In this document: positions 8,012-16,175 of the stretch, piece after piece | Numbering within the stretch: the first letter of the stretch is position 1 | Layout of the letters: each line of letters begins with the position of its first letter | Source of the DNA: Sandaracinaceae bacterium | Lineage (GTDB): Bacteria > Myxococcota_A > Polyangia > Polyangiales > Sandaracinaceae | Reading direction: 5' to 3' | Length of the DNA: 39,728 nucleotides | Assembly (NCBI GenBank): GCA_019637095.1 | Contig: JAHBWG010000085.1 | Location: 1-39,728 of the forward strand | Notes under the pieces: model-generated | The model's database searches: none | What the model was told of the DNA's origin: nothing | Seen by the model: only the letters and a program-made list of their open reading frames with translations | Made by a program: the position numbers and the translations under genes

Positions 8012-8803
8012 TCAGCGGGCGAGGCGGTACAGGTTGGACCACGCGCAGGTGTGGGTGACCAGCGCCTCGATCCACGCGCGCTCGACGCCGAGCGCCTCGA
8101 CGATGGCGCTCGGATCGAACGACGCGAGGCTCAGCGGGTACGCGTGCACGTCGAGGTGCGCCTCCACGACGTGCCAGCCCAGGCGCGCCATCGCCTCGCG
8201 CACCGCGCCGTGCTCGGGGTTCCAGAGGGGATCGTCGACCCAGTAGAGGGCGCCGCCCGGCGCGAGGCACGCGGCGGCGAAGCAGAGGAAGCCGAGGCCG
8301 CCGTCGAGGTCGCGGAACGGGTCGGTCACCGCGGCGGTGAAGCGACGCCGGAGCGCCGCCGGCACGGAGCCCTCGAGGAAGTCCGCGCGGTGGGTCTCGA
8401 CGCCCTCGGCCGCGAGGAACGCGAGCAGGCGCTCGTCGAGATCGAGCGCGCAGACCTCGCGGTGGCCGAGGAGGCGCAGGGCGAGCGTGACGCCGTCGTC
8501 GTCGCCGACCGCGACCACGCGCTCGTGCCCGCGCACGTGCGCCGCGCGGCGCAGGCACGAGGCCGCGTCGACGTGGAGCTGCCCGAGCTCCTCGTCGCGC
8601 GCGGGGCGGTCCGCGAGCTGCGCCTCGAGCGCGGCGAGCTGCGCCGGATCGACCTCGGCGGGCGCGGCGTCGCGCGTGCGCTCGGCCATGCGCAGCAGCC
8701 ACGCGAGGCTCACGCGCGGATCGTCGGGGTCGCCCGCGAGATCCACGTCGCCGACGCTCGCGCTCCGGGGCGCCGCGCGGAGCAGCGCGTCGAGGGCGCT
8801 CAC
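8012..8803 (-). CDS. Branched-chain polyamine synthase A-like (DUF43 family) aminopropyltransferase
   Basis: Encodes 263 aa from GTG 8803. The Rossmann-like core carries [15 protein letters not shown], with the Gly-Asp-Asp-Asp motif of BpsA/DUF43 enzymes, then [13 protein letters not shown] and [17 protein letters not shown], which match the family's second and third strand motifs. Archaeal and Thermus BpsA transfers aminopropyl groups from decarboxylated S-adenosylmethionine to spermidine, giving N4-branched polyamines. This copy is shorter than the archaeal enzymes (about 350 aa) and seems to lack most of the N-terminal winged-helix region. GTG 8803 overlaps the stop of the zinc-ribbon gene (GTGA), so the two are translationally coupled; the longer ATG start at 8899 lies inside the zinc-ribbon gene in another frame and is rejected. 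Substrate in this organism is inferred only. Confidence 0.75.
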
Positions 8804-9075
8804 GCGGGCGGCCGGCACCAGCGGAACCCTTTGACCTTCGACCAGTCGATCGCCTGCGGATCGCGCACGTACTCCTCGAAGTAGCCGCAGCTCGTGCACA
8901 CGAACGCCTCGACCTCACCGGCCGGTTGGTGGGCGACCACCCCGAAGACGTTTCCCACCTGCTCCATGGCGATCTTGCGGTCGACCGACGCCTTGCCGTA
9001 GGCGCCGTCCGGCAGCGACTCGAGGTAGCCGATCCGATCGCTCGCGCACTTGGGGCACTGCCACGTCCGCTTCAT
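8800..9075 (-). CDS. Small zinc-ribbon protein
   Basis: Encodes 91 aa. Two CxxC pairs, CPKC near the N-terminus and CTSCGY near residue 59, should form one zinc ribbon around a 50-residue middle section. The C-terminus is aromatic and basic ([12 protein letters not shown]). GGAGGAAG ends 4 nt before ATG 9075, a good ribosome binding site. Its TGA overlaps the GTG of the polyamine-synthase-like gene by 4 nt, so the two are co-translated. Such proteins often bind nucleic acid or act as adaptors, but no specific role can be read. It is divergent from the DUF4863 gene with 39 bp between. Confidence 0.8.
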   Translation of the reverse strand: MKRTWQCPKCASDRIGYLESLPDGAYGKASVDRKIAMEQVGNVFGVVAHQPAGEVEAFVCTSCGYFEEYVRDPQAIDWSKVKGFRWCRPPA

Positions 9076-9114: not shown

Positions 9115-9588
9115 ATGACGGAGCCCCTCGAACGACTCGACGCCGCGCTCGGCCCCGTGCTCGAGGTCGTGCGCACCATCGATCCCGCCGATCCGGGCGC
9201 GCGCGCCGCGCTCGAGGCGAGGCTCCCCCTCGGCTCGCCCCAGATCGCGCGGCTCGCCGCCGTCGTGCGCGAGGGCGTCGCCGCAGGCTGGCTCGCGAGC
9301 CGCGAGGCGGGGGGCGTGCGCTTCGGCCGCGTGCGCAAGGCCGCGGACGACGCGGACCTCTCGATCGACTGCGTGCACATGGACCGCCCGGGTCCCGGGC
9401 ACACGCACCCGAACGGCGAGATCGATCTCTCTTTCGCGGTCGACGGCGCGCCGACCTTCGACGGAAGGCCGCCCGGCTGGACGGTGTACCCGCCGGGCTC
9501 GTGGCACGTCCCGACGGTGGAGGGCGGCGTGATGGATATCCTCTACTTCCTCCCCGGCGGCGCGATCCGGTTCGAGCCGAAGCCGTAG
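9115..9588 (+). CDS. DUF4863 / 4-hydroxylaminobenzoate lyase-like protein
   Basis: Encodes 157 aa. The C-terminal half reads as a small cupin-like barrel with GHTHPNGEIDLSFAVDG, PPGWTVYPPGSWHVPTVEGG and ILYFLPGGAIRF, the conserved blocks of DUF4863. The characterised member PnbB converts 4-hydroxylaminobenzoate to protocatechuate and ammonia. HTHPNGE supplies likely metal or substrate ligands. No nitrobenzoate reductase or protocatechuate pathway gene is nearby, so the substrate here may differ. ATG 9115 is preferred because a TATCCT hexamer lies 10 nt upstream and residues encoded further upstream are antisense to the zinc-ribbon gene. Its TAG shares one base with the GTG of the next gene, so the two form an operon. 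Confidence 0.75.
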   Translation: MTEPLERLDAALGPVLEVVRTIDPADPGARAALEARLPLGSPQIARLAAVVREGVAAGWLASREAGGVRFGRVRKAADDADLSIDCVHMDRPGPGHTHPNGEIDLSFAVDGAPTFDGRPPGWTVYPPGSWHVPTVEGGVMDILYFLPGGAIRFEPKP

Positions 9589-11706: not shown

Positions 11707-12765
11707 ATGCTCTTCCGCCAGCTCTTCGATCCGACGTCGTCCACGTACACGTACCTGCTCGCGAGCGATGGCCAGGCCGTGCTCGTCGATCCCGTCTTCG
11801 AGCAGCACGCGCGGGACGCGGCGCTGATCCGCGAGCTCGATCTGTCGCTCGGGATCACGCTCGACACGCACGTCCACGCCGATCACGTCACCGGCGCGTG
11901 GCGCATGAAGGAGGCGTTCGGGAGCCGCGTCGGGCTCGCGGCCGCGGCGGGCGCCGAGGGGGTCGACGAGCCGCTCGCGGACGGGATGCGGATCGCGTTC
12001 GGCGCGCGCTCGCTCCTGGTGCGCGCGACGCCGGGCCACACGTCGGGCTGCCTCACGTTCGTGCTCGACGACGAGACGATGGCGTTCACCGGCGACTGCC
12101 TCCTGATCCGCGGCGCGGGCCGCACGGACTTCCAGCAGGGCGACGCGCGGCGCATGTACCGCTCGATCCGCGAGGTGCTCTTCGCGCTCCCGGACGAGTG
12201 CGCGCTCTATCCCGCGCACGACTACGCGGGCCGCACGATGACGACCGTCGGCGAGGAGCGCCGCCACAACCCGCGCGTCGGGGGCGCGGCGAACGAGACG
12301 GACTTCGTCGGGTACATGGAGAACCTCGGGCTCGCGCACCCCAAGCAGATCGACGTCGCGGTGCCCGCCAACCTGCGCTGCGGCCGGCCGGACCACGACG
12401 CCCCGGCGCCGCCCGCGTGGGGCCCGGTCGTGTGGAGCTTCGCCGGCGTCCCGGAGATCGAGCCCGAGTGGGTCGCCGCGCACGCGCGCGAGCTGACGGT
12501 GCTCGACGTGCGGCAGCCCGACGAGCTCGCGGGCTCGGGCTCGCTCGGCGAGATCGAGGGCGCGCTGGCGATCCCGCTCGGTGAGCTCGCCGCGCGCGTC
12601 GAGGAGGTGCCGCGCGAGCGGCCCATCGTCACGGTGTGCCGGTCCGGCCGGCGCTCGGCGCAGGCGACGGTGATCCTGCGGCGCCACGGGATCGAGCGCG
12701 TCGCGAACCTGCCCGGCGGGATGCTGCGCTGGCGCGAGCTCGCGCTGCCGGTGGTGGCGCGATGA
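11707..12765 (+). CDS. Persulfide dioxygenase-rhodanese fusion
   Basis: Encodes 352 aa. Residues 1-240 are an ETHE1-type metallo-beta-lactamase fold with HVHADH (55-60), H111 in GHTSGC, D130 in FTGDCLLIRGAGRTDFQQGD and H171 in PAHDYAG. These supply the mononuclear iron site and the glutathione persulfide pocket. Residues about 250-352 are a rhodanese domain with the active-site loop CRSGRRS (Cys311). Known fusions of this kind oxidise glutathione persulfide to sulfite, with the rhodanese moving sulfane sulfur to or from thiosulfate. The order (dioxygenase, then rhodanese) and length match those fusions. It is cytoplasmic, with no signal peptide. The last four bases (ATGA) carry the start of the next gene. 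Confidence 0.93.
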   Translation: MLFRQLFDPTSSTYTYLLASDGQAVLVDPVFEQHARDAALIRELDLSLGITLDTHVHADHVTGAWRMKEAFGSRVGLAAAAGAEGVDEPLADGMRIAFGARSLLVRATPGHTSGCLTFVLDDETMAFTGDCLLIRGAGRTDFQQGDARRMYRSIREVLFALPDECALYPAHDYAGRTMTTVGEERRHNPRVGGAANETDFVGYMENLGLAHPKQIDVAVPANLRCGRPDHDAPAPPAWGPVVWSFAGVPEIEPEWVAAHARELTVLDVRQPDELAGSGSLGEIEGALAIPLGELAARVEEVPRERPIVTVCRSGRRSAQATVILRRHGIERVANLPGGMLRWRELALPVVAR

Positions 12766-13229: not shown

Positions 13230-13235
13230 TAGACT
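13230..13235 (+). promoter_or_regulatory. -10-like hexamer of the diiron/DUF3419/GNAT operon
   Basis: TAGACT, then 9 nt, then ATG 13245. It lies in the 75-bp gap after the small secreted protein and marks a separate transcription unit. Confidence 0.5.
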
Positions 13236-13244
13236 GCGGCGTCG

Positions 13245-13955
13245 ATGTCGGCTGCCGTTCGAGCCCCCGCGCGCGTGACCGTCGAAGGGATCGCGGCGAG
13301 CCGCACGTTCGACGAGGCGGTCGCGCACGTCGCCGCGGCGTACGACTTCACCCGGCACCCTTACTTCGCGTGGGCGCGCGACCCGGCGACGAGCCGCGAG
13401 GCGTTCCGCGCGAGCCAGGCGCCGTTCCGGTTCGCCGTCGAGGGCTGGGCGCAGGCGCTCGCCGCGGTGCTCGCGCGCGTCGAGTCGGTGGAGCTCCGCC
13501 GCGGGCTCGTGAAGAACCTCGCCGACGAGGGCGGCGACTCGCCCGAGCGCGGCCACTCGGCGTCGTTCCTGCGCTACCTCGCGGCGCTCGGCGCGAGCGA
13601 GCCGGAGCGCAGCGCCCCGTGCACGATGGCCGTCCACGCGTTCCGGCACGGGACGACCGCGCACTGCCTGACCGCCTCCGCGCAGGCCGGCGCCGCCGCG
13701 CTCGGCATCGTGGAGCACGTCTACGTCGGGGTGAGCGCCGAGATCGCGCGCCTCGTCGTGGATCGCGGCTGGGTCGCGCCGGGCGCGCAGGACCACTACG
13801 AGATCCACGAGGTGCTCGACGTCGAGCACGCGCGCGACCTGTTCGCGATCGCGCGGCCCGGCTGGGACGTCCCGCGCGCCCGCGACGAGGTCGCGCTCGG
13901 GCTCGGGCTCGGCGCGCACGCGTTCTGGCAGCTCTACCTGGACCTCCTGCCGTGA
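13245..13955 (+). CDS. Iron-containing redox enzyme, heme-oxygenase-like diiron (HDO/TenA-fold) family
   Basis: Encodes 236 aa, all alpha-helical by appearance. Candidate iron ligands follow the HDO spacing: E101-x2-H104 (SPERGHSASF), E157 (GIVEHVYVG) and H188-x3-D192-x2-H195 (IHEVLDVEHARDL). Members of this superfamily (UndA, BesC, SznF-type, CADD) use a labile diiron site and O2 for fragmentation, decarboxylation or N-oxygenation in small-molecule pathways. The exact substrate cannot be told from sequence. It is the first gene of a tight operon: its stop overlaps the GTG of the DUF3419 transferase gene (GTGA), which in turn overlaps the GNAT gene. A TAGACT hexamer 9 nt upstream supports ATG 13245. 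Confidence 0.85.
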   Translation: MSAAVRAPARVTVEGIAASRTFDEAVAHVAAAYDFTRHPYFAWARDPATSREAFRASQAPFRFAVEGWAQALAAVLARVESVELRRGLVKNLADEGGDSPERGHSASFLRYLAALGASEPERSAPCTMAVHAFRHGTTAHCLTASAQAGAAALGIVEHVYVGVSAEIARLVVDRGWVAPGAQDHYEIHEVLDVEHARDLFAIARPGWDVPRARDEVALGLGLGAHAFWQLYLDLLP

Positions 13956-15019
13956 CCGAGCTCGCGTTCGCCCAGGTGCGCGAGGATCCGTGGCTCGACG
14001 CGTCGGTCGCGCGGGACGTCGCGCGGCGGCTCGGGCGCCCGGCGCGCGTGCTCATCGTCGCCTCGGGCGGCTGCACCGCGCTCGGGTTGCTCGCGCTCGA
14101 GGAGGTCGAGCGCGTCGTCGCGATCGACGCGAGCGCCGCGCAGCTCCACTGGGTCGAGCTGCGGCGCGAGGCGATGGCGCGGCTGCCGATCGAGGCGCAG
14201 CTCGTCTTGCTCGGTGCGGTCGAGGCGACGCCTCAGGCGCGGCGGGCCGCCTACGAGGCGCTGCGCCCGCACCTCTCGCCGCCGGTGCGCGCGCGCTACG
14301 ACGCGGCCGCCCCCGAGATCGAGGCGGGGCTGCTGCAGGCGGGGCGGTTCGAGGCGCTGTTCCGCGAGCTCGCGGCGGCGCTCGCCGGCGCGGGGCTGCG
14401 GCCGCTCGAGCAGCCGCGCGAGGCGATCGCCAGCCCGCGCTTCCGGGAGGTGTTCGAGCGCGTGTTCGAGCGCGGCGCGCTCGCGGAGCGCTTCGGCCCG
14501 GCCGCCGTCGACTACTCGATGGACCGCGACTTCGGCGAGCACTTCGCCGACGTGTTCGCGCGCGCGCTCGCGCGCTGGCCCGCCGGCGAGAACTACTTCC
14601 TGCACCAGGCGCTCGAGGGGCGCTACCTCGATCGGCCGGACGGCCTCCCGCCGGCGCTGACGCGCGAGGCGCAGGCGGCGGCCCGGGCGCGCGGGCTCGA
14701 CCGGCTCGAGCTCGTGCACGCCCGCTTCGACGAGGCGCTCGACGCGCTCGGCGGCCCGTTCGATCTCGTCCAGACCTCGAACATCTCCGACTGGATGCCC
14801 GTCGACGCGCTCGAGCGCCTGCTCGAGCGCGTGCGCGCGCGGCTCGCGCCGGGGGGCGCGGTGCTCGCGCGGCGGCTCAACGGGGACCATCGGCTCGCGG
14901 ACGTGGTCGGGCGCGTGCTCGAGGTGGACGCCGCGGCCTCCGCCGCGCTCCTCGCGAGCGATCGCTCGTTCTTCTACCGCGAGGTCGTCGTGGCCTACGC
15001 GCCGGGGGGTCGCCGATGA
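13952..15019 (+). CDS. DUF3419/BtaA-like S-adenosylmethionine aminocarboxypropyl transferase
   Basis: Encodes 355 aa from GTG 13952, overlapping the previous stop by 4 nt. The N-terminal Rossmann segment VLIVASGGCTALGLLALEEVERVVAIDASAAQLHWVELR matches DUF3419. So do MDRDFGEHF, NYFLHQALEGRYL and the C-terminal QTSNISDWMP...LAPGGAVLARRLNGD. BtaA in this family moves the 3-amino-3-carboxypropyl group of SAM to diacylglycerol, the first step in betaine lipids. The second step needs an N-methyltransferase (BtaB), which is absent here, so the acceptor may be something else. Length is slightly below BtaA (about 400 aa). The extreme N-terminus lacks a membrane helix, so the enzyme is likely cytoplasmic or peripheral. 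Confidence 0.85.
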   Translation: MTELAFAQVREDPWLDASVARDVARRLGRPARVLIVASGGCTALGLLALEEVERVVAIDASAAQLHWVELRREAMARLPIEAQLVLLGAVEATPQARRAAYEALRPHLSPPVRARYDAAAPEIEAGLLQAGRFEALFRELAAALAGAGLRPLEQPREAIASPRFREVFERVFERGALAERFGPAAVDYSMDRDFGEHFADVFARALARWPAGENYFLHQALEGRYLDRPDGLPPALTREAQAAARARGLDRLELVHARFDEALDALGGPFDLVQTSNISDWMPVDALERLLERVRARLAPGGAVLARRLNGDHRLADVVGRVLEVDAAASAALLASDRSFFYREVVVAYAPGGRR

Positions 15020-15819
15020 GGCTCGTCGAGATCACGCGCGCGGACCGGCCGGCGTTCCAGGGGCGCCTCGCCGCGTTCGACGCGCACGCGAGCTACCCGT
15101 TCGGCGAGGATCGGTTCCGGCTCGATCACGGCGCCGACTACTACGCGTTCTTCGATCGGCTCGGCGAGGTGAGCCCGCACGTGTTCCTCGACGGAGAGGA
15201 CATCGTCGGGATGGGGGTCGCGGTGCTGCGCGACGTCCCGTTCCGGCGCGGCGAGCGGGCGCGGCGCACGTGGTACCTCTGCGACGCGAAGGTCCACCCC
15301 GAGCGGCGCGGGCAGAAGCTCGCCTACCGCGCGGCGGGGCAACGTTTCTTGCGGCACTATCTGCGCGCGCAGCGGGCGTACGGGATCACGATGAACCCTG
15401 GTGACGGGAGCGACAACGGCGTGGTGCGGCACGCGATGCGCTACCGGCTCGCGCCGTTCCACCTCGGGGGCGTGCTCGGCATCTACTCGCTGGACGCCGA
15501 CGCGATGCGCCGGCTCGCGCCGCTCCTGACCGCGCACCGCGGGCCGCTCGAGTACCTGTCGCTCGAGGGCAAGAAGGACCTGATCATGCAGAGCTCGGGG
15601 GCGCGGCTCCCGCTCTTGCACGTGCAGTTCGGGCCGTGCGCGGAGCGCGGGCACGCGGCGCCGATGGAGGGCCACACGCACATGTTCTGTGCGCTCGAGG
15701 GCGACGCGCTCGCGGGCGCGCTCGCGGCCGAGGGCGTCGACCCCTCGGCCTCCGCGACGATCCTCGCGCACCGCATGCAGGACTGCGACTGGCAGTTCGT
15801 CCTCACCAGCGACATTTGA
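15016..15819 (+). CDS. GNAT-family N-acyltransferase, third gene of the operon
   Basis: Encodes 267 aa. ATG 15016 overlaps the DUF3419 stop by 4 nt (ATGA). The GNAT core is visible at about residues 55-140: strand VFLDGEDIVGMGVAVL, then WYLCDAKVHPERRGQKLAYRAAGQRFL with the acyl-CoA pyrophosphate loop RRGQKL, then GITMNPGDGSDNGVVRHAMRYRL. The C-terminal 100 residues are an extra domain with EGHTHMFC and DCDWQF that I do not recognise. The acyl acceptor is unknown; in this operon it could acylate an amino product of the upstream transferase. That is a proposal, not seen. The operon ends with a C-rich/G-rich hairpin. Confidence 0.8.
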   Translation: MRLVEITRADRPAFQGRLAAFDAHASYPFGEDRFRLDHGADYYAFFDRLGEVSPHVFLDGEDIVGMGVAVLRDVPFRRGERARRTWYLCDAKVHPERRGQKLAYRAAGQRFLRHYLRAQRAYGITMNPGDGSDNGVVRHAMRYRLAPFHLGGVLGIYSLDADAMRRLAPLLTAHRGPLEYLSLEGKKDLIMQSSGARLPLLHVQFGPCAERGHAAPMEGHTHMFCALEGDALAGALAAEGVDPSASATILAHRMQDCDWQFVLTSDI

Positions 15820-15878: not shown

Positions 15879-16175
15879 GGCGCGGCTCGAGATTCGGTGG
15901 GTGAGCGCGCAGAACGCGGCGCCTTCGCGTCTTGGCGTCTTGGCGCGAGATCAACGGGGGCTCGCGCGAAGGCGCCAAGCCGCGAAGGGAAGGGTCGGGT
16001 CTTGGCCGGCTCCGCGGGCGATTCGGTGGGCGAGCGCGCAGAGCGCGGCGTCTTCGCGTCTTGGCGCGAGATCAACAGGGGCTCGCGCGAAGGCGCCAAG
16101 CCGCGAAGGGAAGGGTCGGAGGTCGGCGCGACTCCGCGCGAGATCCATCGGCGAGCGCGCAGAACGTGCGCAGGG
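15863..16175. repeat. About 2.5 direct copies of a 121-125-bp hairpin-bearing repeat
   Basis: Copies begin at 15863, 15988 and 16109, each with GAAGGGTCGG; the third is truncated. The first copy contains a 28-nt inverted repeat, 15922-15949 against 15961-15988, with 11-nt loop and 25 of 28 positions matched. The second copy keeps the right arm but has a shortened left arm (about 16050-16069). Shared blocks include GAGCGCGCAGA and TTGGCGCGAGATCAAC. This fills most of the 453-bp gap between the GNAT and radical SAM genes. I see no convincing gene in it; open frames through it are repeat-encoded. Confidence 0.85.

Follow-up and report, generated by a model that had tools for sequence, protein, structure and literature searches.

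BtaA, which makes diacylglyceryl homoserine (DGHS) from S-adenosylmethionine (SAM) and diacylglycerol, is to our knowledge the only characterised DUF3419 enzyme. It is a 3-amino-3-carboxypropyl (ACP) transferase (PMC10491745). The known substrates of heme-oxygenase-like dimetal oxidases (HDOs) are amino acids or free fatty acids; characterised HDOs with three histidine and three carboxylate ligands (3H/3C) mostly cleave C-C bonds, desaturate or rearrange, while HrmI, also a 3H/3C enzyme, is an N-oxygenase. An amino acid or a derivative of one is oxidised by the HDOs of the fluopsin C (flc), mangotoxin (mbo) and polyoxin (PolF) systems (PMC11363339, PMC13185094, PMC12614342). N-myristoyltransferase (NMT) uses its terminal carboxylate as the catalytic base, for which truncated human NMT1 can substitute Glu244 (PMC7048800); a review of GNAT enzymes considers a catalytic terminal carboxylate to be unique to NMT (PMC4964394). 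In a 39,728 nt stretch of DNA from a Sandaracinaceae bacterium of the Myxococcota (assembly GCA_019637095.1, contig JAHBWG010000085.1; the whole stretch is termed the window), an HDO, a DUF3419 protein and a GNAT acyltransferase are encoded by three consecutive genes, the trio. There is strong evidence that the trio is a unit kept together in very different bacteria. On balance, the three genes probably encode a self-contained pathway to a single metabolite derived from an amino acid, which would be made by transfer of ACP, oxidation with O2 and acylation of an amine. The genes are arranged as follows.

13245..13955, forward strand: gene 1, HDO of the 3H/3C type, 236 aa, from an ATG to a TGA
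13952..15019, forward strand: gene 2, DUF3419 protein, predicted ACP transferase, 355 aa, starting at a GTG
15016..15819, forward strand: gene 3, double-GNAT N-acyltransferase, 267 aa, from an ATG to a TGA, with the C-terminal end ...TSDI

Both junctions are exact 4 nt overlaps, GTGA at 13952 (HDO/DUF3419) and ATGA at 15016 (DUF3419/GNAT); in this, coordinates included, the initial annotation of the window was accurate.

Linkage of the three genes was assessed in 284 Myxococcota genomes and in a wide scan, for which the HDO alignment was searched against 84,980 species. Some DUF3419 protein occurs in 44 of the 284 genomes; DUF3419, GNAT and HDO genes lie within about 5 kb of each other in 14 of 17 Myxococcota DUF3419 neighbourhoods fetched, and the remaining three, which are without the HDO/GNAT pair, contain other, longer DUF3419 proteins. 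The profile of the HDO subfamily finds 15 of the 284 genomes at E<=1e-65 (two further matches, at 1e-13 and 1e-16, are other HDOs), and the GNAT subfamily profile finds 15 as well, a list identical to that of the HDO and made up of the 14 trio loci and the window; in all 15 genomes, the HDO and GNAT genes stand in one cluster with a DUF3419 gene of one clade. The coincidence of two such 15-genome sets has a probability of about 3e-25 on the assumption of independent genomes, which genomes are not. In the wide scan, 80 HDO loci were found and all three genes are present in 73 of them; four of the seven incomplete loci lose a gene at a contig end, and three (L069, L123, L128) are without a partner. 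A chance neighbourhood is rejected by the identical HDO and GNAT sets together with the 73 complete loci. The earlier proposal that these genes belong together is thereby borne out in the Myxococcota neighbourhoods and in the wide scan alike; the trio is not confined to one genome, which the initial annotation had named as a sign of chance, and its 73 loci are spread over several phyla.

Hosts of the trio belong to the Myxococcota, Planctomycetota, Poribacteria, Acidobacteriota, Bdellovibrionota and the Alpha-, Beta- and Gammaproteobacteria, and are free-living, predatory or intracellular. The trio is no artefact of metagenome assembly, because it is carried by isolates (Legionella anisa, L. 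bozemanae, L. steelei and L. steigerwaltii, Endozoicomonas, Kistimonas, Pyxidicoccus caerfyrddinensis and Hahella) and by the complete chromosome of UKL13-2. Gene order varies across lineages while linkage is kept, with DUF3419-HDO-GNAT in 46 cases, DUF3419-GNAT-HDO in 24, one divergent arrangement, and HDO-DUF3419-GNAT in the window. The distance matrices of the three proteins are correlated in pairs (r 0.62-0.76; none of 1000 permutations reached such values), although correlations of this kind are raised by common ancestry in itself. The DUF3419 tree is at odds with the phyla, placing for example Endozoicomonadaceae inside Myxococcota, and therefore points to horizontal transfer of the trio; plasmid carriage was sought in PLSDB and gave no match at E<=1e-5. 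The trio is also present in three genomes of 1.4-1.6 Mb, those of a Paracaedibacteraceae (L092), a Rickettsiaceae (L105) and another member of the Alphaproteobacteria (L084), and therefore survives genome reduction. Decay of the module does occur; in a metagenome-assembled genome of the Oceanospirillales (L062), the GNAT and HDO frames are broken with the gene order intact.

The DUF3419 protein matches Pfam PF11899 at 1.8e-33 (116.7 bits against a cut-off of 28.2) and is predicted from its sequence family to be an ACP transferase. It is the only DUF3419 protein in its own genome; the trio gene is likewise the sole DUF3419 gene in 9 of 12 trio genomes checked, with a second in two Legionella and matches on two contigs in Hahella. 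In the DUF3419 tree the trio proteins form one clade (100/100), inside which the window protein branches first, and 12 alphaproteobacterial BtaA-type proteins form another (100/99). Besides the Pfam family, trio and alphaproteobacterial BtaA proteins have SAM-side (S-adenosylmethionine) residues in common, the positions common to both being E11-D12, S38-x-G40, D59, N214, D280-W281, R307 and Y342. In several Legionella loci (L122 7617-8711, L126 7549-8664; also L124 and L125), a fourth gene after the trio encodes a second, very different DUF3419 protein, which matches PF11899 at 3.4e-38 and, on a long branch, falls outside the trio clade.

Since DUF3419 is the family of BtaA, the operon could represent ordinary BtaA/BtaB betaine-lipid synthesis with two unrelated neighbours, an explanation that is barely credible. 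The two clades are separate, the HDO and GNAT genes accompany the DUF3419 gene in 73 of 80 loci, and BtaB, which adjoins BtaA in 7 of 7 alphaproteobacterial controls (the query counts as one of these; the other six match at E 1e-17 to 1e-66), is not found adjacent to the trio. Nor was a protein at BtaB level found in the Sandaracinaceae genome, where the best match (8.5e-14 over 128 residues) lies on another contig and is near the level of other methyltransferases. The initial annotation had judged the operon not to be the known betaine-lipid route and had looked to a BtaB gene elsewhere in the genome as the counter-evidence; its judgement holds with respect to clade, neighbourhood and genome.

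A new aminolipid is a less conventional alternative, in which the DUF3419 protein would form DGHS in the manner of BtaA, and the head group, instead of being methylated by BtaB, would be N-acylated by the GNAT and oxidised by the HDO. The core residues common to BtaA and the trio proteins would fit this, as would the NMT-like fold of the GNAT, which is compatible with long-chain acyl-CoA, and a BtaA segment (window residues ~90-125) that is retained by the window protein and by the L. worsleiensis copy. This segment is, however, absent in 55 of 57 other trio DUF3419 proteins, most trio proteins being about 90 residues shorter than BtaA, and the acceptor-side positions differ, reading I-P-P-x-Q in BtaA and A-x-Q-H in most trios. 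The amino acid or free fatty acid substrates of known HDOs and the drug-efflux-type genes that follow the trio in Endozoicomonadaceae also argue against a lipid, which is considered unlikely.

The predicted structure of the DUF3419 protein (predicted local distance difference test, pLDDT, 93.2) features a class I SAM-binding fold interrupted by a large helical insert at residues ~80-247; a sequence search found no solved structure of any DUF3419 protein. Generic SAM methyltransferases and spermidine synthases were retrieved by fold search with Z up to 15 and lie within about 1-2 Z of each other, so that methyl and ACP transfer are not separated by this search. The enzyme might also cyclise SAM to homoserine lactone, azetidine-2-carboxylate or 1-aminocyclopropane-1-carboxylate, which would then be N-acylated by the GNAT and oxidised by the HDO, possibly to give a signal or antimetabolite. 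AzeJ and VioH, which have a methyltransferase fold, convert SAM to azetidine-2-carboxylate (PMC10491745), and a reaction for which a second substrate is unneeded fits the wide distribution and the lack of a fourth gene. The large helical insert is nevertheless conserved and suggests a second-substrate pocket, and the characterised relative BtaA transfers to an acceptor; SAM cyclisation is accordingly viewed as improbable.

The HDO was judged by sequence, whereas predicted structures were made for the DUF3419 and GNAT proteins. It matches Pfam PF14518 (Haem_oxygenas_2) at 4.7e-13, above the cut-off, and its fold family together with the ligand order E/H/E/H/D/H places it among the 3H/3C HDOs. 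The predicted ligands are encoded as follows.

13527 (E95), 13554 (H104), 13713 (E157), 13806 (H188), 13818 (D192) and 13827 (H195), forward strand: HDO ligand codons, invariant in 62/62 homologues

Five of the six ligands proposed initially are retained in this set; the sixth had been given as E101, which is conserved in only 7 of the 62 sequences, and is replaced by E95. The HDOs of the other trios have 63 conserved positions; the window HDO keeps 30 of these, all ligands included (the next lowest keeps 54), and so appears to be a genuine yet divergent member, the most divergent of the trios, perhaps with another substrate.

The solved proteins nearest to the HDO by profile are CADD/pABA (para-aminobenzoate) synthase (1.7e-13) and BesC (4e-10); the profile also matches HrmI, at 8.5e-8. 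With CADD as its best PDB sequence match, and with the fold family and all six ligands of CADD and NePabS, the HDO could be taken for a CADD-type pABA synthase. These enzymes sacrifice Tyr27 and Lys152 (PMC11965152); in all 62 HDO homologues, however, the Tyr27 site (position 41) is F/L/M/I/V and the Lys152 site (position 167) is I/L/V/H, and the window HDO scores 25.7 with the NCBIfam CADD model against a cut-off of 200. This assignment has next to no probability. BesC, a 4-chloro-allylglycine synthase, is another 3H/3C HDO; its NCBIfam model matches 7 of 15 homologues weakly (best 1.2e-7) but does not match the window HDO, and no other Bes-type gene recurs beside the trio HDO.

The presence of N-oxygenases among HDOs, including the 3H/3C enzyme HrmI matched by the profile, brings a metal chelator into consideration, formed by ACP transfer to an amine (compare nicotianamine and staphylopine), N-oxygenation by the HDO and acylation to a hydroxamate. 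E95 and H104 are spaced by 9-10 residues in the HDO homologues, a distance that argues against a 3H/4C ligand set of the SznF type; the additional Glu-bearing helix of such N-oxygenases could hardly be accommodated. No gene recurs beside the trio across phyla, and hence no uptake receptor or synthetase; a chelator is held to be very improbable.

The acyltransferase of gene 3, ACYLTRANSFERASE, has a predicted structure with a pLDDT of 95.6. The window protein falls just below the Pfam GNAT cut-off (7e-4; 20.3 bits against 20.7), while 40 of 56 homologues match PF00583 at E<=1, the best at 7e-9; an RRG-x-x-L acyl-CoA motif is found at residues 97-102. Against the PDB the model has 175 matches at E<=0.001, and all 50 listed are GNAT/NMT-type acyltransferases; by predicted fold and motif the protein is clearly a GNAT. 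All three family assignments made initially are therefore upheld, by Pfam for the HDO and the DUF3419 protein and by the predicted fold and the PF00583 matches of homologues for the GNAT.

Tandem-GNAT enzymes (a histidine acetyltransferase and a tandem GNAT of the clavulanate cluster) and NMTs head the Foldseek results for this model. VIA-align superposes it on NMT with Z ~14 over 217-223 of 267 residues, a value tied within 1 with those of glucosamine N-acetyltransferase and the tabtoxin resistance protein. The last residue of the model pairs with NMT residue 496, 451, 410, 421 or 492 (five organisms), which we take to be the C-termini of those NMTs; the coincidence of the last residue sets NMT apart from the other tandem-GNAT matches of similar Z.

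15805..15816, forward strand: codons for the conserved C-terminal TSDI of the GNAT; in the model, the terminal Ile267 (predicted catalytic carboxylate) coincides with the last residue of NMT

Nearly all complete GNAT homologues (72 of 73), with 20-54% identity to the window protein, stop exactly at the Ile/Leu of (T/S)-x-(D/E/Q/T)-(I/L); the exception is the broken gene of L062. The HDO and DUF3419 proteins show no such constraint at their C-termini, which are freely variable. Superposition places the terminal residue in the predicted GNAT active site, and because the terminal Ile/Leu is fixed in 72 of 73 homologues and aligned with the NMT terminus, the trio GNAT is suggested to use its own C-terminal carboxylate catalytically, as NMT does. 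The double-GNAT fold of NMT is matched over the whole chain; the trio GNAT differs in being bacterial, in belonging to a metabolic operon, in its 6-10% identity and in the lack of any NMT Pfam or sequence match, no NMT Pfam family being among the matches of the 56 homologues at E<=1.

For the pathway proposed above, we infer the following reactions, order of steps, acceptor and product. The DUF3419 protein would transfer ACP from SAM to an acceptor, and the HDO, with its 3-His/3-carboxylate dimetal site, would catalyse an O2-dependent oxidation of the adduct or of a precursor; desaturation or C-C cleavage would be likelier than hydroxylation, because these are the reactions of the nearest characterised HDO relatives. 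The NMT-like double GNAT would acylate the free alpha-amine, taking the acyl group from acyl-CoA and using its own C-terminal carboxylate as the base. As no fourth gene recurs, the acceptor and the acyl donor are probably common metabolites. The trio probably makes a small molecule; the product would be an N-acylated, oxidised, amino-acid-derived metabolite, a soluble molecule being likelier than a membrane lipid, and the efflux-type genes after the trio in Kistimonas and Endozoicomonas offer a hint in that direction. By chemical analogy only, an N-acyl oxyvinylglycine is a candidate product: transfer of ACP onto a hydroxyl would give a homoserine ether, desaturation by the HDO would yield the enol ether of an inhibitor of pyridoxal phosphate (PLP) enzymes, and N-acylation would mask it. 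The PLP-enzyme inhibitors used for comparison, rhizobitoxine, aminoethoxyvinylglycine (AVG) and formylaminooxyvinylglycine (FVG), are made by other enzymes.

Several points weigh against this pathway. The prediction of ACP transfer draws on a family in which one function is characterised, and the trio clade stands well apart from it; co-occurrence of genes is no proof that their products act on one molecule. The exporter genes were observed in Endozoicomonadaceae alone, a long acyl chain and a lipid product would be equally compatible with the predicted NMT-like fold, and the window copy of the HDO, with fewer than half of the conserved positions, may carry out a different oxidation.

Upstream of the operon, a candidate promoter element is present.

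13230..13235, forward strand: TAGACT, candidate -10 element for a leaderless transcript from about the ATG at 13245; consensus match only

TAGACT is not over-represented in the window (2 copies against 1.95 expected by chance); both copies lie exactly 15 nt 5' of an ATG (11692 before the ATG at 11707, and 13230 before that at 13245). The pattern TANNNT-N9-ATG is enriched in the window, with 4 observed against 0.39 expected, and among genome-wide occurrences of TAGACT-N(4-16)-ATG the spacer is 5-9 nt in 40 of 49 (p 8e-10). It is the position and spacer, not copy number, that suggest a -10 element of a leaderless transcript upstream of the HDO and leaderless promoters in this organism. The initial annotation had TAGACT leading the operon, which the spacing favours, although the copy number is at the level of chance.

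An all-against-all comparison of flanking open reading frames found no recurring fourth gene across phyla; the families obtained were those of near relatives (Poribacteria), the ABC ATPase superfamily in a few Myxococcota, and one small membrane protein in four loci. This membrane protein, without a Pfam match, is encoded directly 5' of the DUF3419 gene in three loci (L115 4301-4987, L099 1473-2213, L108 4307-4986) and after the GNAT gene in L092 (7362-7955); the four hosts are diverse. Drug-efflux-type genes lie downstream of the trio in Kistimonas and Endozoicomonas (L061 6880-9476, L071 6710-9231), namely HlyD and MFS genes directly after it in Kistimonas and, in Endozoicomonas, an MFS gene preceded by a gene of 353 aa. 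At L057 (3-1600), two divergent genes beside the trio resemble, by eye, ergothioneine-type EgtD and EgtB. Within the window, the gene at 8012-8818 on the reverse strand, 4.4 kb from the trio, matches BpsA_C (branched-chain polyamine synthase) and possibly encodes a SAM-derived alkyl-transfer enzyme, and 9115-9585 is a strong match to the 4-hydroxylaminobenzoate lyase PnbB (6e-32). Downstream of the trio, at 15950-16100, a repeated stretch, gctcgcgcgaaggcgccaag, precedes the radical-SAM gene.

Among open-licence PMC papers, none was found that joins DUF3419 with heme oxygenase or aminocarboxypropyl with HDO, although subscription papers may hold such a report; one paper containing both "3-amino-3-carboxypropyl" and "diiron" is a chance co-occurrence and irrelevant. 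In the searchable literature, none of the flc, mbo and PolF clusters is described with a DUF3419 protein, and the trio differs from them in comprising just three genes in several phyla. The statement in the initial annotation that no pathway with this set had been described is consistent with the open-licence literature, in which no account was found of the gene set, of the DUF3419 clade or of the NMT-like acyltransferase; all three components are members of known superfamilies. The product class stands a fair chance of being new. More tentatively, the trio may constitute an undescribed, horizontally spread three-enzyme route to homoserine-type metabolites, N-acylated and oxidised, that form a new class; the route would include the first GNAT outside NMT with a catalytic C-terminal carboxylate.

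With three enzymes and common substrates, the pathway is small enough for a single experiment to rebuild it in E. coli. DUF3419 would thereby gain a second function and HDOs another reaction, and the trio GNAT would show whether catalysis by a C-terminal carboxylate has evolved elsewhere than in NMT. Kept from Myxococcota to Legionella and to alphaproteobacteria with genomes of 1.4-1.6 Mb, the trio likely makes something useful in very different lives.

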